Shown here: positions 22,240-54,345 of the stretch, piece by piece
Numbering within the stretch: the first letter of the stretch is position 1
How the letters are laid out: the number at the start of each line of letters is the position of its first letter
Assembly (NCBI RefSeq): GCF_004210215.2
Contig: NZ_CP067394.1
Location: forward strand, 2,914,001-2,978,000
Length of the DNA: 64,000 nt
Source of the DNA: Cryobacterium sp. SO1
GTDB lineage: Bacteria > Actinomycetota > Actinomycetes > Actinomycetales > Microbacteriaceae
Direction of reading: 5' to 3'
Program-made: the position numbers and the translations under genes
The notes under the pieces: generated by a model
The model's database searches: none
Told to the model about the DNA's origin: nothing
Seen by the model: the letters and a program-made list of their open reading frames with translations, nothing else

Positions 22240-23895
22240 CTACTCGGCCGGTGTCAGCTTGGTGAGGATCAGCGGGACGGTGACCTGCAGGGGGTCAGCC
22301 GTGGCGTACTGGTCGTCCTCGTTGGGCCAGCCCACGTAGTTGCGGGTGTTGTACTCGCCCAGCACCGGGTGGGTGCCGACCGGGATCACCGGAACGTCAT
22401 CGACGAAGATGCTCTGCACTTCTTCGAGGGCCGCGGTGCGCTCCTCATCGGTGGCCGCGGTGGCGTAGGTGTTCAGCAGCTCGGTGGCACGCGGGTTCTC
22501 GTAGCGACCGAAGTTGTAGTCCACCTCTTCGCCCGTCAGCAACCAGCGACCGTCCATCGTGTCGGAGTAGAGGTCGTACGGCGTGGTGCCGCTGTCGGTC
22601 CAGTGCATGATGGCGTCGAAGTTGCCGGTGCGCTTGTTGGCCCACCAGGTGTCGACGTCCGGCGTGTTCACCTTCGCGTCGGCGCCGAGGGTCTTCGTGA
22701 CCTGGTCGGCGATGAGGCTGATGCCGGTGACGTAGTCGTTCCAGCCCTGCGGAACCTCGAGGGTGAACGAGACCGGCTCGCCGTCGGGGTCGACCAGGGC
22801 GTCATCCGCCCAGGTGTAGCCGGCGTCTTCGAGGATCGCGCGAGCGGCGTCAACGTCGGTCGAGAGCTCCTCGCCCTCGTACTGGGGAGCGATGTACTGC
22901 TCGCCCACCGGGGTCGGCAGACCGGTCACCGAGGACAGCTCGGGGCCGGCCTTCTCACGGGCGATCTCGGTGTGTGCCGTACGGTCGATGACGGTGTTGA
23001 CCGCCTGGCGGAAGGCGACGTTGTTGAACGGCTTCTTCTGGTGGTTGACGAACAAGACGTCCGGCGCCATCACGTTGGCCGCCCAGAACACGTTGTGGTC
23101 GGGGTCCTTGTCCACGAATGCGCTCTGCACGTTGGGGATGAAGGCCTGCGCCCAGTCGGCGTCGCCGTTGGCGAGGGCCGTGGTCAGCGCCGTGTTGTCG
23201 TTGTACGAGACGTAGTACAGGGTCGGCACGGCGAGGTCGCCGCCCCAGTAGTCGTCACGGGCCTGCATCGTGACCGACTGGCTGCTGAAGCTGTCCAGCG
23301 TGTACGGGCCGGTGCCGACGGGCTCGGGGTTGACTTCCGTGCTCGGGTCGGCGATGTCGGCCCAGACGTGCTCCGGGACCATCGGGATGTGCAGCACCTG
23401 CGCCTGCTTGACGAACTTGGATTCGGCGAAGGTGAGGACGACGTTCTCGCCGTCCTTGACCACGTCGGTCAGCTGCAGGTTGCCCGTGTCGAGCGCGGGA
23501 GTGTTTTTGATCAGGTTGAAGGAGAACACGATGTCGTCCGCGGTGAAGTCCTCACCGTCGTTCCAGGTCACGCCGGTGCGCGGGGTGACGGTGAGCTGGG
23601 TGTAGTCGGCGTTCCATTCGACTTTCTCGGCCAGCCAGGGGGTGGTCTCGTTCTTGCCGACGGCGTTGACCATGGCGAGGGGTTCGAAGACGACGTTCTT
23701 GTAGCCGAGCTTGTTCGCGGACGAATCCCCGACCCAGGGGTTGTTCGACTCCGTGGTGATCGCTCCGTCAGGCTTGGCGATGGTGATGGACGCCCCGCCC
23801 TCAGGCTGCGAGGTGGGTGCGGCGCCTCCGGTGCAACCGGTGAGTGCGAGAGCCGCCACCAGTCCAGCGCCGATAAAGGTTGATCTAAGCCTCAT
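22240..23895 (-). CDS. ABC transporter substrate-binding lipoprotein (SBP family 5)
   Basis: 551 residues from ATG 23895. A short signal peptide ends in the lipobox LALTGC, then the SBP_bac_5 fold begins: LAEKVEWNADYTQLTVTPR, GVTWNDGEDFTADDIVFSFN and KKPFNNVAFRQAVNTVIDR. It should be anchored outside the membrane and deliver substrate to the Opp-type permeases. First gene of the operon; the longer frame from 24003 would cross the operators and is not used. Confidence 0.9.
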   Translation of the reverse strand: MRLRSTFIGAGLVAALALTGCTGGAAPTSQPEGGASITIAKPDGAITTESNNPWVGDSSANKLGYKNVVFEPLAMVNAVGKNETTPWLAEKVEWNADYTQLTVTPRTGVTWNDGEDFTADDIVFSFNLIKNTPALDTGNLQLTDVVKDGENVVLTFAESKFVKQAQVLHIPMVPEHVWADIADPSTEVNPEPVGTGPYTLDSFSSQSVTMQARDDYWGGDLAVPTLYYVSYNDNTALTTALANGDADWAQAFIPNVQSAFVDKDPDHNVFWAANVMAPDVLFVNHQKKPFNNVAFRQAVNTVIDRTAHTEIAREKAGPELSSVTGLPTPVGEQYIAPQYEGEELSTDVDAARAILEDAGYTWADDALVDPDGEPVSFTLEVPQGWNDYVTGISLIADQVTKTLGADAKVNTPDVDTWWANKRTGNFDAIMHWTDSGTTPYDLYSDTMDGRWLLTGEEVDYNFGRYENPRATELLNTYATAATDEERTAALEEVQSIFVDDVPVIPVGTHPVLGEYNTRNYVGWPNEDDQYATADPLQVTVPLILTKLTPAE

Positions 23896-37518: not shown

Positions 37519-38148
37519 GTGACCACATCGGGCAGTCGAGGTCAGGGCATTCGTCTGGCTCTCGAACTCTTTAACCTCAGAGCCGCGTTGGTGACCACCC
37601 TCGAGAACCAACTCACAGACCAGCGCCACGACCTGTTCACCCGCGCCGGCCTCGGACACCTCGCCGGGAAGATCTACGCGCTCCTACGTCAGATCCCCGC
37701 ACTCACCGTTGAAAGCGCTGCACGCCTACTAGGGGTCTCGACCAGGCACACCGCCACCATCTTCAGTCGACTGCGCCGCCACAAGCTCATCGTCAAACAT
37801 GCTGATGGCTGGGCAAGCTCCAAGAGGGACCTCCGGGACCACGCAGCTCGCACCGAAGGCGTAGCCGGCACCCTGGCCGATCGAGCCGAACGATATCGAG
37901 CCGAACGCGAAGTGTGGGCATGGTGGCACGCCGAAATTGACCGGATGACCACAGCACCGAGAGCCCGCACACGTCGACTCCACGTCACCAGCCGAACTCT
38001 CGAATTCACCGACAGCCGACCAGGTGAGCGCAACTGGCCGCTCTACCCCCGCGACCGCGACGGCCGGGGCGATCACCGTATGGCGCGTTACTGGGCTGTC
38101 AACGGAATGCTCGCCCCGGGCTCGCTCTGGTGGTCAAGCGCCGCCTAA
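37519..38148 (+). CDS. Plasmid-type winged-helix DNA-binding protein
   Basis: 209 residues, GTG start behind AGGGAGAA. The centre holds a helix-turn-helix with wing: TVESAARLLGVSTRHTATIF and SRLRRHKLIVKHADGWASSK. The C-terminal part is basic and Trp/Arg-rich (RYRAEREVWAWWHAEIDRMT; RNWPLYPRDRDGRGDHRMARY). I do not recognise the exact family. As the first gene of the island that carries ParB-, DUF3846- and DUF3560-type genes, it probably regulates or maintains the element. Confidence 0.6.
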   Translation: MTTSGSRGQGIRLALELFNLRAALVTTLENQLTDQRHDLFTRAGLGHLAGKIYALLRQIPALTVESAARLLGVSTRHTATIFSRLRRHKLIVKHADGWASSKRDLRDHAARTEGVAGTLADRAERYRAEREVWAWWHAEIDRMTTAPRARTRRLHVTSRTLEFTDSRPGERNWPLYPRDRDGRGDHRMARYWAVNGMLAPGSLWWSSAA

Positions 38149-38208
38149 CGGACTCAGTAGTAGCACCCAGCCGATACTCTGACCGGAGAAGCGTTCTCAG
38201 GGGGAAAT

Positions 38209-38829
38209 TTGACGATCACCAGCCGATATACCTACGCCGCAGCGATGCTGCTGGCTCTCACGCTCACTGGATGCAGCGCTTCGGCGAGCTCGACCAACGT
38301 GCTCGCCCCATCGGCCCGCAGCGCCTCAGCGGTACCAACACCAACTCCGACCGCTATTCCTGGCGATACTGACGGCGACGGCACTCTTTCCGAATTCGAA
38401 AAACAAGTCGCAGCTCAAAATGCACCACGCGATTATGCGCTTCCAGACGGCACCGTTGTGAGCATCGACCCGAAGGTACCGCTTCCCGCCGAAGTCGTCG
38501 CCGCGATCCGTGGCCAGTTTGCTGAATACGGAGCATATGCGTTAGCTCTGTCCTCTCATTCCGACGTCTCCGAGCAGCAAGCAAGAAGTGATGTCAGCGC
38601 GACGTTCCTCGCGGATCTTGACGCACTAGCTGAGGCCCTTGGTAAGGGAATTGTTCTCACGTATCAAGCGCAATCATCAGTGCCCGGAGGAGGCGAAGAA
38701 ACCCTTTGGGTTTGTACGGCATCCAAGGGTCAGTATCCGGTCCAGGCCCTCGCGGATGGTGACAAGTTCAATGCTGACGTTCAGGCGTGGGCCGCTAGCC
38801 GTGGCTACGAAGTTATCTACATTCAGTAG
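38209..38829 (+). CDS. Secreted lipoprotein with an EF-hand-like calcium loop
   Basis: 206 residues from a TTG start with AGGGGGA upstream. The signal peptide ends in LTLTGC. After a Thr/Pro linker comes DTDGDGTLSEFE, a canonical 12-residue EF-hand/dockerin loop (ligands at positions 1, 3, 5, 12). The remaining domain (from LPDGTVVSIDPKVPLPAEVV) has no motif I can name. It lies directly upstream of the first copy of the leader RNA. Confidence 0.6.
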   Translation: MTITSRYTYAAAMLLALTLTGCSASASSTNVLAPSARSASAVPTPTPTAIPGDTDGDGTLSEFEKQVAAQNAPRDYALPDGTVVSIDPKVPLPAEVVAAIRGQFAEYGAYALALSSHSDVSEQQARSDVSATFLADLDALAEALGKGIVLTYQAQSSVPGGGEETLWVCTASKGQYPVQALADGDKFNADVQAWAASRGYEVIYIQ

Positions 38830-38886
38830 CCACCTTCGGTGAGGCCGTGCCGGCCCTGGGAGCCGCTGCGCGGCACGTCCTTTTCC

Positions 38887-39038
38887 TTTTTTCGTCTGTC
38901 TGGCCGGTCATCGTAGTTCGCTCCGTGCCTTCGTTCCGGGCTTTCGCGGCATATCCTCGCTGCGCTGCGGTATTCCACGACCCTGCACTACGGCACTCCC
39001 GCTCTCAATCGATTTCTCTTGCCAGACAGGCAAAAAAA
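38887..39038 (+). ncRNA. Candidate structured leader RNA, copy A (upstream of the ParB-like gene)
   Basis: A 152-nt element ending 23 nt before the ParB-like start codon. Its ends pair as a long helix: TTTTTTCGTCTGTCTGGC (38887-38904) with GCCAGACAGGCAAAAAAA (39021-39038). Inside, CGTAGT and ACTACG can form a second helix, and GTGCC/GGCAC a further, possibly pseudoknotted one. Two blocks are nearly identical to copy B (33 nt after the 5' strand and about 35 nt before the 3' strand), while the closing helix differs in sequence but keeps pairing. Role unknown; position suggests control of the downstream gene. Confidence 0.6.
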
Positions 39039-39061
39039 TCAGTTGATGGAGAGAGAACCCA

Positions 39062-40462
39062 ATGACTAACACCACCGTAAATGTCGGCACCATCGAGCAC
39101 ATTGACCCGAACCTGATCGTTGTAGAAGCCAACGTGCGCACCGAAGCTCAGCTGGGCCGCGAGTTCGTGGCCAGCATCAAGGCAAACGGCGTCCTGACGC
39201 CGATCCTCGCCCGCCGCGACGACCAGGGCAACATCATCGTGCGAGCCGGTCAGCGCCGCACCCTCGCCGCCCGTGAGGCCGGTTTGGCTACGATTCCGGT
39301 TTACGTAGTATCCGCCGACGAAACGACCGTCGAGCGCATCGTGCAGCAGATGGCCGAGAACGATCACCGCGAGGCCGTCACCGACGCCGACCGGGTGGCC
39401 GCGTTTCAGCAGTTGGCTTTTGAGGGACTGACCCCCGCCGTGATCGCCAAGCGACTGGGCAGCAAGCCTGCCACAGTCAAGGCCGGAATCGCCGTCGCAG
39501 AGAACGCCGTCGCGGCATCCGCCATCGTCAGCCACTCCCTCACTCTCGACCAGGCTGCCGCCTTGATCGAGTTCGAGGGCGACGACGAAACCGTGTCCGT
39601 GCTCATCGACATTGCCACCACCAGCCCGGAGCAGTTCGCCCACGCAGCGCAGCGCGCACGCGACGACAAGCGCGTGGCCACGATGAAGGCCGACGCGACC
39701 GCCGACCTGATCGCGCGCGGCTTCGAGGTTCTGGACCGCGACCGGGGATCCTACGAAACCGACTACACGAGCATCAGCTACCTGACCACCGCAGACGGCG
39801 AGGCAGTCACCGCCGAGCACATCACCGAGAGCGACGGCCGCGCCGCGTACGTGTACGCGTACAGCAGCAGCGACGCCGCCACGGTGCGCTATTACCTGAA
39901 AGACCCCAAGGCTGCCGGGTTCCGCAAGTCCAGCGGCAGCGGGGCCACCAGCGGACCGATGACCGACGAGCAGAAGGACGAACGTAAGACCCTGATCGCC
40001 AACAACAAGGCGTGGGCCAGCGCCGAGGTCGTGCGCCGCGAATGGCTGGCAGAGTTCCTGAGCCGTAAGACGCTCCCGAAGGATGCCACCCAGGCCATCA
40101 CCTACGGCCTGACCGTGCACCACGGCATGGTCGGCAAAGCCATCCAGAACGGCAACGTGCTCGCGCACACGCTGCTCGGGATGAAGCGGGCCAACTACTG
40201 GGATGCCGACAAGCTCGCTGCACTGGTGGAAAAGACCCCCACCAAGGCGCAGCACGTCAGCCTCGCAATCGTCCTGGCCGGTATCGAGGACAGCACCAGC
40301 AAGGAAACGTGGCGCTACCCGAACGCACACAGCGCCCGGTACTTCGTGCAGCTGGCCGCATGGGGCTACGGGCTCAGCGACGTTGAGCAGATCGTGATCG
40401 ACGCCGTTGCCGAGAACGCCGCGACCAAGGCAGCCGAAGAAGGGGAAAAAACAAAGGAGTAG
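39062..40462 (+). CDS. ParB/Spo0J-like nuclease-domain protein
   Basis: 466 residues. The N-terminus is a ParB-type domain: DPNLIVVEANVRTEAQLGRE, IKANGVLTPILARR, VRAGQRRTLAAREAG, with the GxRR CTP-binding pattern, then QQMAENDHREAVTDADRVAA and an HTH (GLTPAVIAKRLGSKPATVKA). The C-terminal 250 residues are a separate helical region seen in plasmid-borne ParB-like proteins of actinobacteria. No ParA gene is adjacent, so partition is unproven. Expression is likely influenced by the leader RNA immediately upstream; a strong terminator follows. Confidence 0.8.
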   Translation: MTNTTVNVGTIEHIDPNLIVVEANVRTEAQLGREFVASIKANGVLTPILARRDDQGNIIVRAGQRRTLAAREAGLATIPVYVVSADETTVERIVQQMAENDHREAVTDADRVAAFQQLAFEGLTPAVIAKRLGSKPATVKAGIAVAENAVAASAIVSHSLTLDQAAALIEFEGDDETVSVLIDIATTSPEQFAHAAQRARDDKRVATMKADATADLIARGFEVLDRDRGSYETDYTSISYLTTADGEAVTAEHITESDGRAAYVYAYSSSDAATVRYYLKDPKAAGFRKSSGSGATSGPMTDEQKDERKTLIANNKAWASAEVVRREWLAEFLSRKTLPKDATQAITYGLTVHHGMVGKAIQNGNVLAHTLLGMKRANYWDADKLAALVEKTPTKAQHVSLAIVLAGIEDSTSKETWRYPNAHSARYFVQLAAWGYGLSDVEQIVIDAVAENAATKAAEEGEKTKE

Positions 40463-40476
40463 CCTCAGCCCAAGAC

Positions 40477-40507
40477 CCGGCGCGACAGTCCCCCACTGCC
40501 GCGCCGG
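40477..40507 (+). terminator. Terminator of the ParB-like gene
   Basis: CCGGCGCG and CGCGCCGG form an 8-bp perfect stem with a 15-base loop, followed by ATCCTTTT. Confidence 0.75.
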
Positions 40508-40532
40508 ATCCTTTTCCCGTGATGTCTCGCAG

Positions 40533-41025
40533 CTAGCTGCAGACTGGATCCTTACAAACAGTGAGCCGCAACGTATTCTCCACAGTCTTGATCTTCTTGT
40601 AGTAAGCCAGTGTGCCTTCCCTGTTCATGTTGCTCAAGAGCCCCATGGCGGTGTTACCTCCGTATAAAGGGCCCCCACTATCTCCAAATGTCATGGAGTG
40701 GTCCACCTCCACGAGATTGCCAATTGTTGTGGTGACACCGTTTTGAGTCGCAGATTTGATTGAACTGAGAGAACTGACGGTGCCGCTGTGCTCATAGTTG
40801 GATGCACGTCCGTATGAGAGCACTCTCTCGTTCAGCCACGGATCGCGTACTTCCTTGACGGGCTTTCCGGCGGTCTCCCTATAGTGAAACCAGGCGTCCA
40901 TCATTACCGGTGATCGCATGAGCATGGCGTCTCCGGTATAGCTGAGCATTTGGGATTGCATGGTCAGTTGCTGCACTTCCCCTGTTGGGGCGTAGTAGTA
41001 CCGGAGATTGGTCGGGCAGTGGCCT
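40533..41025 (-). pseudogene. C-terminal half of a trypsin-like (S1) serine protease
   Basis: The frame preserves ATGHCPTNL (catalytic His region), RSPVMMDAWFH, and TFGDSGGPLYGGNTAMGLLS (catalytic serine), ending CKDPVCS. The signal peptide and pro-domain seen in the paralogue at 42886-44117 are absent: upstream of about 41025 the reading frame runs into unrelated sequence near an insertion-sequence end. It is related to the second protease (shared RSPVMMDAWFH, GDSGGP, C-terminal Cys-x-DP-x-C). Confidence 0.7.
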
Positions 41026-41227
41026 GTTGCGCGTCTCCACGGGTGACGATGAGGCCGGGGTTGTGCGTCGCGTTGGTTGACGATGGGGTTGTCGACATCG
41101 GCGGCGTCATCGTGACGAGCAGCGATGGTCGCGGACGAACGCACGGGCCGGGGTCGTCGCGTTGATCCTGGCGAGGCTGGTCGGCAGTGTGACTGCGAGC
41201 GCCGCCTCCTCAACACGAGGTGGCCCC

Positions 41228-41876
41228 TTCCCGGGTCGGGTGTGGTAGTCAAGAGTTGCTGGCATGACCTGGTGGCAGCAGAACGGAGCTGGACGCGATG
41301 ATCGTGGTCGCCTCGCCGGTGCAGGCCGAGGCCCTGCTCGACGCGGGGCAGCTGAGTTGTCCCGGCTGCGCCGGGACGTTACGCCCGCACGGATATGGCC
41401 GCATCCGCAGGGTGCGCAGCCTCGGCGAGGCACCGGTCACGGTGCGACCTCGCCGGGCCCGCTGCTTCTCGTGCGCGGCCACGCACGTGCTGCTGCCCGC
41501 CGGACTGGTTCTGCGCCGGGCGGACACGGCCGAGGTGATCGGCACGGCCCTGGCGGCGCAGGCCCGCGGCGAGGGGCACCGTACGATCGCGGCCCAGCTG
41601 GGCCGCCCGGTCTCCACGGTGCGCCGCTGGCTGCGGCGGGCACGGGAACCACACGCCGATTGGTTGCATGAACAGGGCGTGCAGCACGCGTACCGCGCCG
41701 ATCCTGACATCCTGAACCGTGAGCTGGTCTGGCCGACCACGCTCGGGGACGCACTGAACCTCCTGGCCGGCGCAGCGCTGGCCTGTCAGCGGCGTGGGGA
41801 CTGCCCGTTGCCGGTGTGGACGCTGATTGGCATGTTCACCCGCGGCCGGCTCCTGCCCCCGCCCCTGCGCACCTGA
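41228..41876 (+). mobile_element. Insertion-sequence remnant carrying a DUF6431 gene
   Basis: The DUF6431 accessory gene (41298-41876) is usually paired with a DDE transposase in actinobacterial elements. Here the transposase is missing: after 41876 the sequence passes quickly into a DUF3560-related frame. The left end is placed tentatively near TGTGGTAGTCAAGAGTTGCT at about 41228. Exact ends cannot be fixed from this copy. Confidence 0.5.
41298..41876 (+). CDS. DUF6431-family zinc-finger/HTH protein of an insertion sequence
   Basis: 192 residues. A zinc-ribbon-like start (LSCPGCAGTLRPHG ... RARCFSCAATHVLLP) is followed by an HTH (GHRTIAAQLGRPVSTVRRWL). The pattern is that of DUF6431 proteins found beside transposases; it may bind the element's ends. 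Whether it still acts without its transposase is doubtful. Confidence 0.7.
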   Translation: MIVVASPVQAEALLDAGQLSCPGCAGTLRPHGYGRIRRVRSLGEAPVTVRPRRARCFSCAATHVLLPAGLVLRRADTAEVIGTALAAQARGEGHRTIAAQLGRPVSTVRRWLRRAREPHADWLHEQGVQHAYRADPDILNRELVWPTTLGDALNLLAGAALACQRRGDCPLPVWTLIGMFTRGRLLPPPLRT

Positions 41877-41922
41877 GAATCCACGCCGGAGCGCTCCCGC
41901 GTGCCCGAAAATCGCCGTCATC

Positions 41923-42330
41923 GTGACGACCGCGACAATTCCCACCGTCACCATCGACGATCACCACGTCACCGTGCCGACCACACCCCCAAAACTCATC
42001 GTCAAACTGGATGACGCCTCATCGTCATCCAACGTGACGGACAACACCGCCGAGCAGATCCAGGCCCGCGCAACCCGCCTCGCCCCGCACATCGACGAGA
42101 AGCGCGACCAGATCGCCTACTGGGAAGCCGTACGCGCCGCCCAGGTCGAAAGCGGCACGGCCACCGGCTACGACCGCTCCACCGTCAAGAAGGGCGACCG
42201 GGTGAAGATTCGCGGGCAGTGGCGCGAAGTCGTGCGCGCCAACCTCAAAACGGTCAGCGTCACAACCGGCTACACGTGGACCGACACCGCCCCGTATGCC
42301 GAGGTTCAGCAGCTCGTGCGGCCCGAGTAG
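41923..42330 (+). pseudogene. DUF3560 C-terminal remnant 1 (chimeric frame)
   Basis: From GTG 41923 the first 40 codons (VTTATIPTVTIDDHHVTVPT onward) look like the start of an unrelated small protein. From about 42030 the frame is the tail of a DUF3560 protein: AEQIQARATRLAPHIDEKRD, QIAYWEAVRAAQVESG, KKGDRVKIRGQWREVVRANL, WTDTAPYAEVQQL. This is the longest of the three remnants at its 3' end. It is followed by a hairpin repeat, as are the other two. Confidence 0.65.
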
Positions 42331-42365
42331 TCCCGCCGCAGCGACCGGCCCGCCCAGGGCCGGCC

Positions 42366-42386
42366 GTGAGGGGGTATCCCCCTCAC
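42366..42386. repeat. GTGAGGGG hairpin repeat H1
   Basis: GTGAGGGGG-TAT-CCCCCTCAC, a 9-bp stem, followed by ACTCCCCCACC. Lies after DUF3560 remnant 1 and is preceded by GGGCCGGCC. Confidence 0.8.
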
Positions 42387-42491
42387 ACTCCCCCACCAGG
42401 TAAAGCGGGGCGAGGCGGCACCGACCTCGAGAACGGCCCCGCCGACGGTCCCAGGAAGGCTCGAGCTGCCTGTTCCAAGTCGGCTTACAGG

Positions 42492-42908
42492 TTAGTTGGG
42501 TCGCGGTGGGGAGATAACTATGACGGCTCCATCGCCGCACGATTCAGGAATCGAAACAGGCCCGTCCTCACCTGCGAGAGGGATTCCCCCGCCGAGCGCC
42601 ATCTCATCCCCAATCTGGTATTTGTCGCCGGCGAAAGTAAGCGTTGTGCCATCCCAGCTGGTGATTGAGTCAGGGAAGACGGGGATAGAGCCGTCCTCAA
42701 AACGAACACAGTTGTCTATGACCGTAAGGGTCCCGATTTTTAGGCCGGCCGATGCGATCGAGTCCTCACTAAGGGGGTAAGTGACTAGCCCAGATGATTC
42801 AGGTGCGACGGGCTCGGTGGCTGTGCATCCGGCCAACAGCGCCACAGAAACGAAGACCACGCTGATCGGGGGCCAACGCCTTCCTCTATTGACAGCCTGG
42901 AGGGTCAA
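42492..42908 (-). CDS. Small lipoprotein of unknown function next to a protease gene
   Basis: The product has a hydrophobic helix ending in the lipobox LLAGC (VVFVSVALLAGCTATEPVAP) and a beta-rich C-terminal domain (GTLTVIDNCVRFEDGSIPVF, TLTFAGDKYQIGDEMALGGG). The start is uncertain: TTG 42908 overlaps the end of the protease gene and is used here. Tight spacing suggests co-transcription with the protease. The second half resembles small beta-barrel lipoproteins but I cannot assign a family. Confidence 0.55.
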   Translation of the reverse strand: MTLQAVNRGRRWPPISVVFVSVALLAGCTATEPVAPESSGLVTYPLSEDSIASAGLKIGTLTVIDNCVRFEDGSIPVFPDSITSWDGTTLTFAGDKYQIGDEMALGGGIPLAGEDGPVSIPESCGDGAVIVISPPRPN

Positions 42909-44117
42909 TGCAGAGCTGGAGACTGAAGCGAGAAAGGATCGGATTGATAGGTGTGATGTAGTCATAGAAGGCTCCATACGCAGTGATGATGCCCAGAGCA
43001 GTGTTGTTGATAAACACAGGTCCGCCGCTATCACCCTTTTCTACAATTGTGTTTGCGATTTCTGCAAGGCCATAGATTTCTATTCCGGAATCGCTGGTGC
43101 GATGCGCGGATAGAGCGTGGACAGTACCGCAGTCGTATCCTCCAACACGCCCAAACAGGCAAATCGGGTCGCCCACTTCAAGCGCATCCTTTCCGGTGAC
43201 AGGCCGGCCGACCCCGAAGTTTGCGTGGAACCACGCATCCATCATCACCGGACTTCTCATCCTCGGAAGCTGAAGAGGAAGTTGCCATTGGGCGAAATCT
43301 GCCGGAGGTAATTTGAGCAGTGTCCCGCAGTAATCACACCGAGATCCGGCCCTGTCGCTGAGGTCACGACGAACCCAGAGGTGCACGAGAGTTGTCCGTC
43401 TGTGGCGTCAATAGCAGTACCACCCGCCTGCCCATACCCCGCAAGACCGGCCTCGTCGGGTTTCTCGAGAACAGCCCGCACCTCAAATCCCGCTAGGGCA
43501 TTCTCGCCTATCGCGGCCTTGATCTCGGCGGCAATCGAGTCCGCGTCCACCAGTTCCCCACCACGGTTCTGAGGCTGACCCGCGATCGAAACGTTGAAAG
43601 CGCGTTCTTGAATGACTGCACTGGATGAGACAGTGACGCCCTCCCCAGCCAAGGCGACGGCTGCCGCGTGCACCTGGTCGGCGGCAGCGTAGATTTCAAC
43701 TTCCGATGCGCCATAGTCGTCGACCAAGACATAGGGATAGCCTGCCGCTGCCAGTATCTCAACGGCACCAGCCGGGGGTTTCGCTACGAAGGCAAGAGCC
43801 ACCCCGGTGTCGGTCACCCATCCCCCTGCAAACTCGGCAGGGAAGGCCTCCCGGACAACAGCGATGCTATCGTCCGCTTCGAGCTTCCAGGCCTGTGTCT
43901 TCTCAAAGGCCCCAGTATCTTCATCCTCGGCTGTGGCTGTGGCTGTGGCTGTGGCTGTGGCTCCTTCTGCTCCTGCAGTCCGAGACCCGTTTATGCCATT
44001 CGATGAGGCTGCTGGGCCAGTTTGGGCGTCTGCGAGCGTTGGGTGCGCAATCTGTAGTCCCAAGAGCGCCGGCGCTAACGCGAGTATCAATCCGACTCGA
44101 ACGACAGCTCTTGACAT
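42886..44117 (-). pseudogene. Secreted trypsin-like serine protease, frameshifted
   Basis: From ATG 44117 (GGAGG upstream): signal peptide (RVGLILALAPALLGLQIA), a TATATATA repeat encoded by a hexamer (GGCTGT) run at about 43930-43960, a pro-domain (EAFPAEFAGGWVTDTGVALA onward), then CTSGFVVTS and GVITAGHCSNYL with the catalytic histidine. The frame stops at 43257, but the protease continues in another frame: RSPVMMDAWFHANFGVGRPV and KGDSGGPVFINNTALG with the catalytic serine, to 42886. Compared with the paralogue at 40533 about a dozen residues are missing at the junction, so a deletion probably caused the shift. Confidence 0.75.
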
Positions 44118-44245
44118 GCGACCTCCATCAACAATGAGAAGTGCGGGCGATGTGAGCATATCTGTTTTGGACAGCTGACCGGTGGATTAGTGAGGATTGA
44201 GCGCGGTCAGAGGCGAATCCAACTGTCAAGAGTAATTAGGGTGCC

Positions 44246-44341
44246 CGGGTGAAGATCCGCGGCCAGTGGCGCGACGTCGTGCGCACCTGGACCGACACCG
44301 CCCCATACGCCGAGATTCAGCAGCTCATGCGGCCCGAGTAA
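44246..44341 (+). pseudogene. DUF3560 C-terminal remnant 3
   Basis: 31 codons, RVKIRGQWRDVVRTWTDTAP then YAEIQQLMRPE, ending at TAA. Relative to remnant 1 a stretch between VVR and TWTD has been lost in frame. Nothing of the N-terminal part remains. It is followed by the same GGGCCGGCC plus hairpin sequence. Confidence 0.6.
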
Positions 44342-44376
44342 TCCCGCCCCAGCGGCCGGCCCACCCAGGGCCGGCC

Positions 44377-44396
44377 GTGAGGGGAATCCCCCTCAC
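44377..44396. repeat. GTGAGGGG hairpin repeat H2
   Basis: GTGAGGGG-AATC-CCCCTCAC followed by ACTCCCCCACC. Lies between DUF3560 remnant 3 and the 145-residue protein gene. Confidence 0.8.
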
Positions 44397-44479
44397 ACTC
44401 CCCCACCAGCTGCAGCCGGCCCCGCCCGGCACCCACCCTCGAGAACGGTCCCGACACAGGGACCACAGGAGATCCGGCC

Positions 44480-44917
44480 ATGATCATCACCTACCAACGC
44501 CCCACCACGCTCGAGGCGCACCAACTCGACCAGGACGCCCCCGCCGCCGACCTCAGCCCCACCGGGGCCACGTGCGGAACAACGACCGTTGACGTACTCG
44601 GGATCCAGTGGAACTGCAGCAGAGCACCCCACCCCGGCCAGGACGAACACCGCGCCACCATCACGCCCGCAGGCGACGGCCCGACCGGCGCCGTTGCCAT
44701 CGCGTGGACGTACCAATACACCACCGACGCCCAGCGCGGCGACGTCGACCAGGCTGCCCCCACCCAGAGCATCACCGTCACCCTGTCGTTTCCCGACCGA
44801 GCTGCACACGGCATCAACGCGGCCGCGCTGATCCGCAGCATGATCGACGCCGGAGTAGGCCACTTCTGGGAGGGCGACCAGGACGACGTAACTGCCAGCT
44901 CAACGGCCACGCCCTAA
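44480..44917 (+). CDS. Hypothetical island protein (145 residues)
   Basis: ATG 44480, with AGGAGA upstream. The sequence has no recognised motif: MIITYQRPTTLEAHQLDQDA, a central beta-rich part (DVLGIQWNCSRAP, GAVAIAWTYQYTTDAQRGDV) and an amphipathic end (HGINAAALIRSMIDAGVGHF). Soluble, no signal peptide. It lies between two hairpin repeats. The sequence just before its start is also seen, degenerate, after remnant 1 (about 42418-42460), suggesting a lost second copy of this gene there. Confidence 0.55.
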   Translation: MIITYQRPTTLEAHQLDQDAPAADLSPTGATCGTTTVDVLGIQWNCSRAPHPGQDEHRATITPAGDGPTGAVAIAWTYQYTTDAQRGDVDQAAPTQSITVTLSFPDRAAHGINAAALIRSMIDAGVGHFWEGDQDDVTASSTATP

Positions 44918-44946
44918 CCGCAGGGCCGACCCTCATGAGCTCGTCC

Positions 44947-44970
44947 GTGAGGGGGACGAAACCCCCTCAC
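44947..44970. repeat. GTGAGGGG hairpin repeat H3
   Basis: GTGAGGGGG-ACGAAA-CCCCCTCAC followed by ACTCCCCCC. Same loop as H5. It is 80 bases upstream of the truncated leader RNA. Confidence 0.8.
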
Positions 44971-45050
44971 ACTCCCCCCCACCCATCAAATCCGGCCTCC
45001 GGCCACCCGTTACACGGACCCGGTCACGCCCCGCCCGATCATGCCACATC

Positions 45051-45096
45051 TTTTCTTCGCCCGGCAACCGGTCATCGTAGTGTGCTTCGCGCCTAC
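45051..45096 (+). ncRNA. Candidate leader RNA, truncated copy C
   Basis: Contains the 5' part only: TTTTCTTCGCCCGGCAACCG, then GGTCATCGTAGTGTGCTTCG, aligned with the 5' block of copies A and B. The 3' block and the closing strand are missing; after about 45100 the sequence changes to a GGTCGAG-type repeat and then unrelated DNA. Confidence 0.5.
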
Positions 45097-45181
45097 CACC
45101 GGGGGCTGCTGGTCGAGCCGTCCGAGAGACCTATTGCAGTTGATTCTGCCGAATTCCGACGTGGAGTCATAGGGTGGGCGG

Positions 45182-45580
45182 GTGAGCGATGATTCGCGGG
45201 TCGTTGATCCGGTTACCCAGATCGAGCTAGTAGTCCCTGTCTATGGCACGCCGGAACGAACGATTCGCCGGGCCGCGTTGGCGAGGAAGGGCCTTATCAG
45301 GACAGTTCGTTTTTATCCTGACTGGCCACATCCTTGGCCGTTTTGGGGCGAGGAAGGTGCTGTTTCGGCAGAAGACCTTGGTTTGAGTGAGAGCCTTCAA
45401 GGGGATCTACGTCGCTGGTTCGACGAGTGGAATGCGACATTTCGGTATGACACGGGTTGGCCAACCGCCGCTACAGGTGAAGCCTGGATGAGCGTCGGTG
45501 ACGATCTCGTCATTCGTGTGCAGCAAGAGGTCTGGGATTTCGCCGACGTTCGAGCCGAACATCGAGGGCTCCAGACATAG
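45182..45580 (+). CDS. Hypothetical protein (132 residues)
   Basis: GTG 45182 with GGGTGGGCGG upstream. Acidic, soluble, with aromatic-rich middle (RTVRFYPDWPHPWPFWGEEG, LRRWFDEWNATFRYDTGW). No signal peptide or known motif. Lower GC than the flanking genes. Small acidic Trp-rich proteins of this kind are often cargo of mobile elements, but I cannot assign a function. Confidence 0.5.
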   Translation: MSDDSRVVDPVTQIELVVPVYGTPERTIRRAALARKGLIRTVRFYPDWPHPWPFWGEEGAVSAEDLGLSESLQGDLRRWFDEWNATFRYDTGWPTAATGEAWMSVGDDLVIRVQQEVWDFADVRAEHRGLQT

Positions 45581-45674
45581 CTTGCCGAATCGACAGAGCC
45601 GGAAATCTCTTCTCCCCTGCAGTCTCTGAGAGGCGCCTTGGAGTGGCGGCTCCCAGAGACTTAGTATGGAATGC

Positions 45675-46352
45675 TCAGCAGGACGCGGACGTAGACGGGT
45701 ATGAATTTATTAGTCGGTCACTGTCCGTTGCCCACGAGGCCATAACCTGGAAAACGTACTGGACCTCGCCGGTTTGGCTGTTTATGAAGTAAGCGTCCGC
45801 GAGACCGCATTTCTTGTTGCTTATAGCGTTTTCAAACGTTCGTTCGGGCCAAGTAATAGCGACGCCAGCGGTAGCGGCCATAAGGTCATCCCACGATTCG
45901 ATTCCCTGAGATTGAGAGATCCACCCTGTGGCTCTTGCCTCATTTAGCGTCTTCTGCCACAGGGCCTCTTTACCTGCACGAATGTGCTTGTATCCCCAAG
46001 TGTCATTGCCGCACTTGAGGCGTACATCATGTACTGCTCCGTCCCAGTATTGAACGTATTCCGCGAACATGTCCTCTTCGTTATTCAGGCTGTAACAGCC
46101 GAACCATTGATCCCAAGAAATCGATGAGGGCGCAACCTCCCCTGGAGAAGATTCGGTAGCGCCATGGAGATCTAACGTTCGTTCGTCGATGAAACTCTGA
46201 TCGAGTGCGACTAACTGGCCGTCCACTTTGATGTAGATGAGAATTTCGCCTTCACTTTGCGTTTCCGCCAACGCGGGTGACGCTGTCAAGCCGAGACTAA
46301 AGACGATGGCGATGATCGAGCCAGAAATGATTGACTTCCGAATTTTGCGCAC
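45675..46352 (-). CDS. Secreted hypothetical protein (225 residues)
   Basis: GTG 46352 behind GGGGGG. N-terminus RKIRKSIISGSIIAIVFSLG then LTASPALAE is a cleavable Sec signal peptide. The mature part has four cysteines (WFGCYSLN, VRLKCGN, NKKCGLA, STSASC at the very end) that could form two disulfides. Composition is noticeably less GC-rich than the chromosome. No family recognised. Confidence 0.55.
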   Translation of the reverse strand: MRKIRKSIISGSIIAIVFSLGLTASPALAETQSEGEILIYIKVDGQLVALDQSFIDERTLDLHGATESSPGEVAPSSISWDQWFGCYSLNNEEDMFAEYVQYWDGAVHDVRLKCGNDTWGYKHIRAGKEALWQKTLNEARATGWISQSQGIESWDDLMAATAGVAITWPERTFENAISNKKCGLADAYFINSQTGEVQYVFQVMASWATDSDRLINSYPSTSASC

Positions 46353-46462
46353 ATTTACCCCCCGTAATGTCGGCTTCACCAATGAGCCGGTATGAGAGTG
46401 TCCCGTACATCGTCGTCGGAATGCTAGTAGTGCAGTTCGTTTGGAGGCGAAATAGCTCTGGC

Positions 46463-46786
46463 GCGGCCACCCACACCACAGATGCCCGTTACAACCCGGT
46501 CACCGTGGCCAACCGCATCGAAACGTTGGGCGCTGAGCTCCGCAAGCTCGAACGCCGCATAACCGCGCAGTGCTATGACGACACACGCGGCTACATCGAC
46601 GCCACCGCCGAGCAGATCCAGGCCCGCGCAACACGCCTCGCCCCGCATATCGACGAGAAGCGCGACCAGATCGCCTATTGGGAAGCCGTCCGCGCCGCCC
46701 AGGTCGACAGCGGCAAAGCCACCGGCTACACCTGGACCGACACCGTCCCCTACGCCGAGATTCAGCAGCTCGTGCGGCCCGAGTAG
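46463..46786 (+). pseudogene. DUF3560 C-terminal remnant 2
   Basis: Contains the DUF3560 segment YNPVTVANRIETLGAELRKL, AEQIQARATRLAPHIDEKRD and QIAYWEAVRAAQVDSGKATG, then jumps to YTWTDTVPYAEIQQL. Compared with remnant 1 about 35 codons are missing between two ACCGGCTAC repeats, so recombination between them explains the in-frame loss. The frame extends 5' into unrelated sequence; the domain's N-terminal half is absent. Confidence 0.65.
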
Positions 46787-46821
46787 TCCCGCCGCAGCGG
46801 CCGGCCCACCCAGGGCCGGCC

Positions 46822-46838
46822 GTGAGGGCCCCCCTCAC
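46822..46838. repeat. GTGAGGGG hairpin repeat H4
   Basis: GTGAGGG-CCC-CCCTCAC followed by ACTCCCCCACC, after DUF3560 remnant 2 and GGGCCGGCC. Confidence 0.75.
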
Positions 46839-46883
46839 ACTCCCCCACCAGACGCGGCGGGCATAAGAGTGCCTAGATCTCGA

Positions 46884-47195
46884 TCAATCGAAGACCTCGC
46901 CGGTGTCGTCGCGCATCTTGGCGCCGAGGAGGAGGATGGAGAGCCGGGCCGCCTCGTGCGCCTCGGGGGAGCGCGGGTCGTGCGAGATGAACCGCTGGCC
47001 GTCGCCTTCCAGGTGGAAGCCGGTGGCCTCCCCGGCCTCGTTCAACTCGAGCGCGAGCTCGAAGCCGAACGGGTGGAGGGCCATCTTATTCAGGTGGTCG
47101 AGCAGGCCCGAGTCAATGAGGTGCTCGAACGGCTGCGCGTCATCCGACCAGCGGATGTGCGCGATTACCTGCTTGGGCGTCATTTTCTCAGCCAT
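46884..47195 (-). CDS. Hypothetical small soluble protein (103 residues)
   Basis: ATG 47195. MAEKMTPKQVIAHIRWSDDA, FEHLIDSGLLDHLNKMALHP, FGFELALELNEAGEATGFHL; no motif, no signal peptide. It is the only minus-strand gene lying between two hairpin repeats on the plus-strand order, and its codon use is chromosomal in character, so it may be an intact passenger gene. Confidence 0.55.
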   Translation of the reverse strand: MAEKMTPKQVIAHIRWSDDAQPFEHLIDSGLLDHLNKMALHPFGFELALELNEAGEATGFHLEGDGQRFISHDPRSPEAHEAARLSILLLGAKMRDDTGEVFD

Positions 47196-47227
47196 GGGGC
47201 CACCCTAGTGGCCTGCCGGAATTGACG

Positions 47228-47251
47228 GCGAGGGGGACGAAACCCCCTCAC
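47228..47251. repeat. GTGAGGGG hairpin repeat H5
   Basis: GGCGAGGGGG-ACGAAA-CCCCCTCAC followed by ACTCCCCCA. One base of the first arm differs from the consensus. It is 75 bases upstream of leader copy B. Confidence 0.75.
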
Positions 47252-47326
47252 ACTCCCCCAGGGTGAAGCCGGCACGGAGGCCGGATCCACGCGGAGCCGG
47301 CTGCGCCGGCCTGACCCTGACAGAAC

Positions 47327-47482
47327 TTTTCTTCCCTTGGTGGCCGGTCATCGTAGTTCGCTCCGTGCCTTCGTCACCCACAATCTGGCACGCGGTCGCA
47401 AGCTCCCTTATTTCGCACCAGATTGCGTGCACTACGGCACTCCCGCTCTCAATCGATTTCTCTTGCCACCAAGGGCAGAAAA
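47327..47482 (+). ncRNA. Candidate structured leader RNA, copy B (upstream of the DUF3846 gene)
   Basis: A 156-nt element. The ends pair: TTTTCTTCCCTTGGTGGC (47327-47344) with GCCACCAAGGGCAGAAAA (47465-47482), 17 of 18 positions with one internal mismatch. CGTAGT/ACTACG is conserved from copy A, and the variable centre forms its own stem CAATCTGG/CCAGATTG. The start codon of the DUF3846 gene is 79 nt downstream, behind GGAGAGGG. Together with copy A this gives several compensatory changes in the closing helix. Confidence 0.6.
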
Positions 47483-47561
47483 ACGGTGGACGACTACACA
47501 ACCACTGCCCACGAGAGCCCGGGACCCCGCGTATCTCACCATCCTTGGAGAGGGAAACACC

Positions 47562-47987
47562 ATGACCACCAGCACCATCCGCAGCGTCAAGATCAACCCG
47601 ACCGAAACCATCACCACGCTCGACCTGGACAGCGCGAAGGGTGGCAACGACATAGCGGCAGCCATCGACTGCCGCATGTTCGCCGTCGTCGACCTGGCCG
47701 ACAGCATCGACCTATTCGTCGACGATGAAGGACTCATCAACGGGTCGACCCTGAACCTGCCCGCAACCGTGCTGGCCCACCTGCTCGGCAACCCGACCGT
47801 GATCTTTGGAACCGCCATCGCAGTCGGCACCAACCCCGAAGGCCAAACCATCGGGCTGAGCGATAGCCAGTTCGCGCGGGTCCAGAAGGCTTTCGCCCAG
47901 AAGCCCGACCCGGGAACTGTCGACACGCTCATTGAGACGAGACCTGTGGGCCGCCGTGCTTGCATAGGCAGGTATCTGCCTGCATGA
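47562..47987 (+). CDS. DUF3846-family protein with altered C-terminus
   Basis: 141 residues from ATG 47562. MKINPTE-like start (IRSVKINPTETITTLDLDSA), then MFAVVDLADSIDLFVDDEGL, LNLPATVLAHLLGNPTVIFG and GTAIAVGTNPEGQTIGLSDS, the pattern of DUF3846 proteins of actinobacterial plasmids and phages. The last 20 residues (ETRPVGRRACIGRYLPA) do not fit the family and overlap the promoter region of the next gene, so the 3' end was probably replaced at the island border. Function unknown. Confidence 0.65.
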   Translation: MTTSTIRSVKINPTETITTLDLDSAKGGNDIAAAIDCRMFAVVDLADSIDLFVDDEGLINGSTLNLPATVLAHLLGNPTVIFGTAIAVGTNPEGQTIGLSDSQFARVQKAFAQKPDPGTVDTLIETRPVGRRACIGRYLPA

Positions 47988-53994: not shown

Positions 53995-54345
53995 ATGGGC
54001 AAGCAGACGACCGAAATGCTCAAGGGCACGCTCGAGGGCATCGTCCTCGCAATCCTCGCCGTGCAGCCGGCGTACGGCTATGAGATCACGGCCCGGCTAC
54101 GCAACCAGGGGTTCTCCGACATCGCCGAGGGCACCGTCTACGCCCTGCTGATCAGGGTCGAACAACGTGGCCTCGTTGACGTCGAGAAGGTCCCGTCTGA
54201 GAAGGGTCCGCCACGCAAGGTTTACGCGCTGAACGCACTCGGCGGCGAGTACCTCGAAGAGTTCTGGAGGACCTGGAGCTTCCTCGCAGAACGGATCGAA
54301 CAGCTCCACCACCACATCGAACACCCACAGGAAGAAGGAGCGTAA
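53995..54345 (+). CDS. PadR-family transcriptional regulator
   Basis: 116 residues from ATG 53995 with AAGGAGAG upstream. The PadR winged helix is clear: LKGTLEGIVLAILAVQPAYG, YEITARLRNQGFSDIAEGTV, YALLIRVEQRGLVDVEKV. It is the short type that pairs with DUF1048 proteins and drug ABC transporters. It should repress its own operon until a hydrophobic compound binds. Confidence 0.92.
   Translation: MGKQTTEMLKGTLEGIVLAILAVQPAYGYEITARLRNQGFSDIAEGTVYALLIRVEQRGLVDVEKVPSEKGPPRKVYALNALGGEYLEEFWRTWSFLAERIEQLHHHIEHPQEEGA

Follow-up and report, generated by a model that had tools for sequence, protein, structure and literature searches.

The minus-strand origin of filamentous phages is a folded single-stranded DNA that is recognised by RNA polymerase and primes DNA synthesis. 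Single-strand origins (sso) are described in much the same terms in the pertinent section of PMC4595007, as folded single strands recognised by RNA polymerase; they too prime DNA synthesis. Concerning the Frpo/ssi elements of conjugative plasmids (Frpo1 and Frpo2 of F, ssi2 and ssi3 of ColIb-P9), folding of the strand is described as restoring the -35 and -10 boxes (parts of PMC9849209 and PMC11541004), and for Frpo1/2 there is a precedent in vivo (same part of PMC9849209). A survey published in 2024 looked for five known Frpo/ssi sequences at an E value of 1e-6, supplemented by candidates from the survey's own islands; the string 'actino' is absent from its main text (PMC11541004).

The window analysed here is a stretch of 64,000 nucleotides from Cryobacterium sp. 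SO1 (contig NZ_CP067394.1, positions 2,914,001 to 2,978,000), which holds two full copies of a hairpin element. Judging from sequence comparison, each copy would be a single-stranded-DNA promoter of a conjugative plasmid leading region, similar to Frpo/ssi, with a probability of roughly 0.84. This reading draws on computed results, namely the fold and its strand preference, the -10-like motif at its fixed place, the genes around the element and the relaxase-strand rule, and the elements are best read as promoters of the Frpo kind that are new in sequence and in host range. They resemble Frpo1/Frpo2 and ssi2/ssi3 in their leading-region place, in the presence of more than one copy, in the SSB, ParB-like and antirestriction genes nearby and in that the transferred strand would be the template of the genes. 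They differ from Frpo/ssi in that no sequence relation is detectable, the host is actinobacterial, the -10 reads TAnnnT and the tip is another one. Unlike the sso and the phage minus-strand origin, the copies precede many genes.

Two other kinds of repeat bear comparison. Those of R46/pKM101 (IncN), which we take to be the CUP repeats, are similar in lying upstream of the leading-region genes ardA, ardB and ccg on the relaxase strand; they were rejected as relatives, as they give no match to the apex profile, and they are longer (up to 655 bp). EGeRS1 of pLS20 (Bacillus) is, according to the relevant portion of PMC8708921, a repeat of 420-750 bp that directly precedes the ribosome-binding site in several establishment operons, ardC included, and is thus like the element here in being repeated ahead of establishment genes; in the same portion its authors consider a single-strand promoter highly unlikely, in view of the length, of a fold without promoter and of the transferred strand.

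The question touched is the expression of defence-evading and establishment genes of Gram-positive conjugative elements before their DNA is double-stranded, and it becomes testable across many phyla with a conserved hairpin that can be searched for and that has its -10-like motif at a fixed place. Among literature titles and abstract openings none points to the element; subscription journals and bioRxiv lay outside that scope, so it may already be in print.

The copies in the window and their surroundings

Copies A and B, each of about 155 nt, were found where the initial annotation had placed them, and they stand, as it had stated, ahead of unrelated genes, ParB-like and DUF3846, respectively (Table 1); in relatives, genes of other families follow as well. 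The nearly identical blocks it described are real: a 30-nt block is the same in both copies, gave no match with up to three mismatches in 100 shuffles of the window and, at the same tolerance, occurs only twice in the 4.07-Mb genome. The ParB-like product after copy A is 93.9% identical to ParB of a Cryobacterium plasmid, and copy B shares 166 identical nt with the Cryobacterium arcticum plasmid NZ_CP016283.

Table 1. Features of the elements and their surroundings. Positions refer to the window, except where a locus handle is given.
Feature	Position	Strand	Remarks
Copy A, hairpin element	38887..39038	-	minus strand expected to fold; presumed transferred strand
Copy A base stem, left arm	38896..38904	-	reads CTGTCTGGC on plus strand; from sequence and covariation
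Copy A base stem, right arm	39021..39029	-	reads GCCAGACAG on plus strand
Copy A predicted transcript start	near G39021		inferred from -10 position
Copy A -10-like TACGAT	38910..38915	-	
Copy A -35 position, GGAACG	38932..38937	-	weak; 16-nt spacer
Copy A apex hairpin, type A	38945..38979	-	cross-phylum module
ParB-like gene downstream of copy A	39062..40462	+	PF02195
Copy B, hairpin element	47327..47482	-	apex type B
Copy B base stem, left arm	47336..47344	-	reads CTTGGTGGC on plus strand
Copy B base stem, right arm	47465..47473	-	reads GCCACCAAG on plus strand
Copy B predicted transcript start	near G47465		inferred
Copy B -10-like TACGAT	47350..47355	-	
Copy B -35 position, GTGACG	47372..47377	-	weak; 16-nt spacer; from sequence and inference
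DUF3846 gene downstream of copy B	47562..47987	+	PF12957
Copy C, truncated inside hairpin	45050..45094	-	left half only; at end of a plasmid-like fragment
Copy C -10-like TACGAT	45074..45079	-	
Region with scattered pieces of Cryobacterium-type plasmid leading region	37563..47937	+	blastn of window against eleven loci
Divergent elements near mobC/relaxase	L003:4409, L085:4067, L114:9943, L115:9448, L117:7970, L118:9907, G113:C176:50254		
IMG/VR apex contig	L263		G2P-type replication protein
IMG/VR apex contig	L277		pIV secretin
IMG/VR apex contig	L259		capsid protein of tailed-phage type

Plasmid pieces of the DUF3560 region are repeated in the window at 42045-42441, 44238-45094 and 46462-46851, and the island that carries them is, on the face of its sequence, a rearranged remnant. 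A family of 30-nt repeats ending in CCCCCTCACACTCCCCC is found at 42365, 44375, 44949 and 47230, the last one about 70 nt ahead of copy B. Neither an oriT nor a relaxase is recognisable in the window, and for this reason the transferred strand cannot be read from the window itself; the relaxase families PF03432 and PF08751 had no match in the whole genome. Copies A and B look like relics, to judge by their setting, of a plasmid or ICE on the chromosome and, since the window is a chromosomal remnant lacking a relaxase of the two families, they may be inactive.

Structure, covariation and folding strand

Covariation was followed in 29 sequences (A, B and 27 relatives; alignment A1) on a nested structure of 31 pairs, which is the part that the A and B folds have in common. 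Pairing held in 86.4% of the 898 cells, and 17 of the 31 pairs changed on both sides (72 cells); on none of five measures was the real alignment reached by any of 500 shuffles. Registers slid along the structure gave 37-47% of paired cells, a comparison that favours the 31-pair structure because the latter was derived from the folds of A and B. The covarying closing stem, CTGTCTGGC/GCCAGACAG in A against CTTGGTGGC/GCCACCAAG in B, which had been the basis of the initial annotation, is thereby upheld. Two details of that annotation had to be given up: GTGCC/GGCAC is a nested helix instead of a pseudoknot, and the CGTAGT/ACTACG pairing is not conserved, as elsewhere CGTAGT stays while ACTACG becomes ACTCCG, ACTTCG or ACTGCG. 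In A, B and relatives, two interchangeable tips occur on one lower hairpin, type A being the cross-phylum one and type B a CTTATTTCGC-like one of actinobacterial plasmids.

Inverted arms and a nearby ParB-like gene could also be expected of transposon ends or of a ParB/partition site. The stem is an interrupted, covarying hairpin and lies at short distance from the start codons of several unrelated families, so that the probability of such an origin is considered very low.

The strand that folds was studied with 72 full-length representatives, pruned from the best 150 matches of model R1. In 71 of them, the strand with the lower DNA folding energy was the one antisense to the genes. Corrected for composition, z was lower on the antisense strand in 47/72 (Wilcoxon p=4e-4) and on the opposite strand in 25/72, the advantage being small; the DNA-energy z of the antisense strand was -1.9 (weak) for A and -3.7 for B. 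Single (1x1) mismatches on the antisense strand set two purines against each other in 213 cases and two pyrimidines in 8. The asymmetry between G.T and A.C, also tried as a strand test, does not decide (23 versus 20 single mismatches, 51 versus 31 structure cells).

These data bear directly on the interpretation given in the initial annotation, that is, a structured 5' leader RNA in which folding of the sense transcript would control the gene behind it. Compared with its shuffles, the sense strand does fold better as well (z -3.4 and -4.9), the element lies just ahead of start codons, and covariation is neutral as to strand. An RNA leader requires, however, that the sense strand fold better, and the energies run the other way in all but one of the representatives; the excess of purine-purine mismatches on the antisense strand, the TAnnnT fixed on that same strand and the relaxase-strand rule (both described below) also argue against it. 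Nothing in Rfam reached its gathering score, and the matches that scored lower were of chance level, which counts against a leader too and agrees with the earlier statement that no known riboswitch or phage RNA is recognised. The RNA leader was rejected as the main reading on the position of the -10 and the antisense folding, and is regarded as improbable. Of the claim of a selected RNA structure, the selection for structure stands, while what folds is probably something other than an RNA leader. The antisense strand is presumably the transferred strand.

Downstream genes, promoter-like signals and relaxase strand

With copy A as query at E 1e-5, 72 PLSDB records matched, 46 of them typed conjugative, and in 14 of the 72 one single place spanned 80% or more of the query. 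Each of ten Micrococcales plasmids (L003-L012) carried one to five copies, followed by genes for ParB, ArdC, DUF3560, DUF3846, DprA and NrdH/SSB. In the family of the window, Microbacteriaceae, model R1 matched in 75 of 398 genomes, in its order in 17 of 396 and in a wider phylum sample in one of 296, this one being the own genome; a Cutibacterium plasmid (Propionibacteriales), which helped to build R1, has one copy. Of phages, which the initial annotation had proposed to search as well, the INPHARED genomes gave no match to copy A, to the apex or to a phage-contig stretch.

The 162 matches of R1 came from 74 sources, and 157 of them entered the count of downstream genes, with omission of two short pWW0 matches and of three opposite-strand overlaps of counted copies. 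Typed proteins taken from these plasmids served as the reference for gene labels. A labelled gene followed the element in 117 cases (ParB 29, SSB 17, ArdC 14, DUF3846 14, DprA 10, DUF3560 9, NrdH 7, glutaredoxin 3 and a few others), its start codon lying at a median of 25 nt past the element and within 60 nt in 76/117; the other 40 were unlabelled. Pfam confirmed, in examples, the ArdC, SSB, DprA, DUF3560, DUF3846 and ParB domains and, among ten unlabelled downstream ORFs, recognised one integrase and one transposase, leaving eight without family. The element marks leading regions, that is, a place to seek new anti-defence genes, for instance in the DUF3846 and DUF3560 families.

Concerning promoter-like signals, a TAnnnT starting 34-38 nt from the end was present in the 3' arm of the antisense strand in 68 of the 72 representatives, compared to a mean of 1.1 and a maximum of 6 in shuffles. 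It took the form of 13 different hexamers, with TACGAT occurring 34 times. Much of this conservation inside the main family is shared ancestry; after strict pruning, the motif was kept in 11/12 (shuffle maximum 3). In the fold, pairing at the second base of the -10 is low, with a mean of 0.31. A TTG at spacer 16 was found in 10 of the 68 anchored representatives and at any other spacer in at most three, the -35 being weak in A and B. In 33/36 of the actinobacterial representatives in which the apex word and the -10 occur together, the hexamer at spacer 16 starts 5-7 nt past the apex.

As the -10-like motif is antisense and inside the hairpin, a promoter there would start its transcript inside the right arm, and the mRNA would therefore lack most of the element. 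A start inside the element, which the initial annotation had listed among the observations contrary to its own view, is thus what the promoter model predicts from the -10 position.

For the single-stranded-promoter reading, we infer that RNA polymerase binds, where transcripts start and that the genes are expressed on entry. The antisense strand would be the first to enter the recipient and would form a long interrupted hairpin. The 3' arm, as non-template, would show RNA polymerase a -35 adjoining the tip and, in surroundings only partly paired, a -10 TAnnnT, and the 5' arm would be the template. Transcription would begin near the base stem, melt it and continue along the single strand into the genes for ParB, ArdC, DUF3846, SSB and similar establishment functions. 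Once the plasmid became double-stranded, the hairpin, and hence the promoter, would be lost.

In 25 MOBP contigs or plasmids, 60 of 68 elements among the matches listed drive genes on the relaxase strand, as counted by hand from those matches and the annotations; this sets them apart from EGeRS1 as it is presented in the cited portion of PMC8708921. Seven of the eight exceptions, again among the matches listed, are found no more than about 1.3 kb from the mobC/relaxase operon and diverge from it (Table 1), the eighth (G526:C36) being of neither sort, and the seven may be a separate class. The element at L085:4067 reads TTGACG-N16-TACCCT and that at L118:9907, by eye, TTGCCA-N16-TACATT. The MobF plasmids L007 (5/5) and L010 (4/4) agree with the rule; MobF ICE-like contigs were mixed among the matches listed, G304:C3 and G226:C1, for instance, disagreeing. 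In the chromosomal ICE-like contigs of G178, G304, G226, G267, G360, G125 and G334, an element lies about 1-1.5 kb before a small MobF relaxase TrwC-domain match, on the same strand.

For comparison, the leading genes of ColIb-P9 and R46 are on the strand of the relaxase gene, and those of F are on the strand of traM, traJ and traY, which is also that of traI. Leading genes on the relaxase-gene strand have the transferred strand as their template, so the count points, indirectly, to a transferred strand that would be the template of the genes downstream of the element. The place in a leading region, before establishment genes, is given in relatives by gene context and relaxase strand, and in the window by homology alone.

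The apex hairpin across phyla

The type A apex was present in 310 PLSDB records, 209 of them conjugative, and a pattern scan of GTDB representatives gave at least 118 contig pieces, from Lachnospiraceae, Geobacillus-type bacteria, Vibrio, Pseudomonas, Burkholderia, alphaproteobacteria and others. In the fold, the tip CGTGGAATACCG...GGATATGCCGCGAA has bulged As and an A.G mismatch. The first 80 pieces contained 94 apex matches, 55 after pruning; a TTG followed the apex at 5-6 nt in 29/55 (shuffle mean 1.0, maximum 5), in 13 of them as TTGACA, and at 16 nt in 5/55. The remaining 38 pieces were taken up only afterwards and added 23 pruned cases, with the TTG at 5-6 nt in 18/23 (shuffle maximum 4) and at 16 nt in 0/23. 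For all matches listed, the figures are 47/78 (shuffle maximum 8) and 5/78, respectively, the spacing of 16 nt being about one helical turn beyond that of 5-6 nt. The occurrence of CGTGGAATACCG in a Klebsiella CRISPR spacer, given in one part of PMC12195874, was set down to chance, as its flanks do not fit.

The two flanks were compared at the 54 loci where each of them extended for 900 nt or more, counting ORFs that start within 220 nt. ORFs of at least 100 aa were on the predicted side in 29/54 and on the other side in 6/54; the preference was 22 versus 4 of 54 with at least 150 aa and shrank to 46 versus 32 of 54 with at least 60 aa. In the later pieces it was weaker (8 versus 3 of 19, at least 100 aa). 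Ten non-actinobacterial downstream ORFs included, according to Pfam, three DNA methylases and one IS transposase, six being without family.

This test weighs on the notion of an ordinary duplex promoter on the minus strand, pointing away from the downstream gene, with incidental inverted repeats. TAnnnT together with TTG at spacer 16 can be read in that way, and the elements near mobC would then point at the mobC/relaxase operon. The side towards which such a promoter would point is, however, the one with 6/54 ORFs at the apex loci listed; the compensatory changes would be left unexplained, and a consensus scan of both strands found no consensus sigma-70 promoter in duplex A or B. The duplex promoter is accordingly taken as extremely improbable.

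In IMG/VR, 27 contigs carry the apex. Five were tested against Pfam and PHROGs, two of which encode filamentous-phage proteins (Table 1), and the folding strand was that of the longest ORF in 21 of the 25 contigs with an ORF of at least 200 aa. These results would also suit a single-strand origin (sso/ssi), in which RNA polymerase, loaded by the hairpin, would prime synthesis of the complementary strand and gene expression would be secondary; Frpo, moreover, is described with both roles in a section of PMC7736820. The several copies per plasmid and the closeness to start codons (76 of the 117 labelled genes within 60 nt) go beyond the needs of a primer site, and priming as the principal role is considered improbable.

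Returning to promoters on single-stranded DNA, the odds are about even that one near-universal tip (CGTGGAATACCG...GGATATGCCGCGAA) loads RNA polymerase on such DNA in Actinomycetota, Bacillota and Pseudomonadota, and serves both filamentous phages and conjugative leading regions, among them a third one in F, ahead of its DNA methylase gene. The apex profile matches F (NC_002483) at 53,995-54,073 on the minus strand with E 6.5e-13 (L015 8996-9074), ahead of the DNA methylase gene at 54,166 (PF01555) and on the strand expected to be transferred. The classical F plasmid can thus be put to the test at once. In ColIb-P9 (L253), the profile matches at 23,708-23,785, also ahead of a DNA methylase gene; the two Frpo2-like places of this plasmid lie elsewhere, at 28.1 and 35.1 kb. 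It had no significant match at the Frpo2 place of F, at the second copy or at the Frpo2-like places of ColIb-P9, and model R1 had none in the F stretch (L015). A section of PMC7736820 places an Frpo (ssi) upstream of a methylase gene of pESBL whose product is specific for single strands; should the two methylase genes be related, the site in F may not be wholly new. A 231-nt piece of F around the apex is present in at least 5000 PLSDB records and in 3412 of 5426 complete E. coli genomes.
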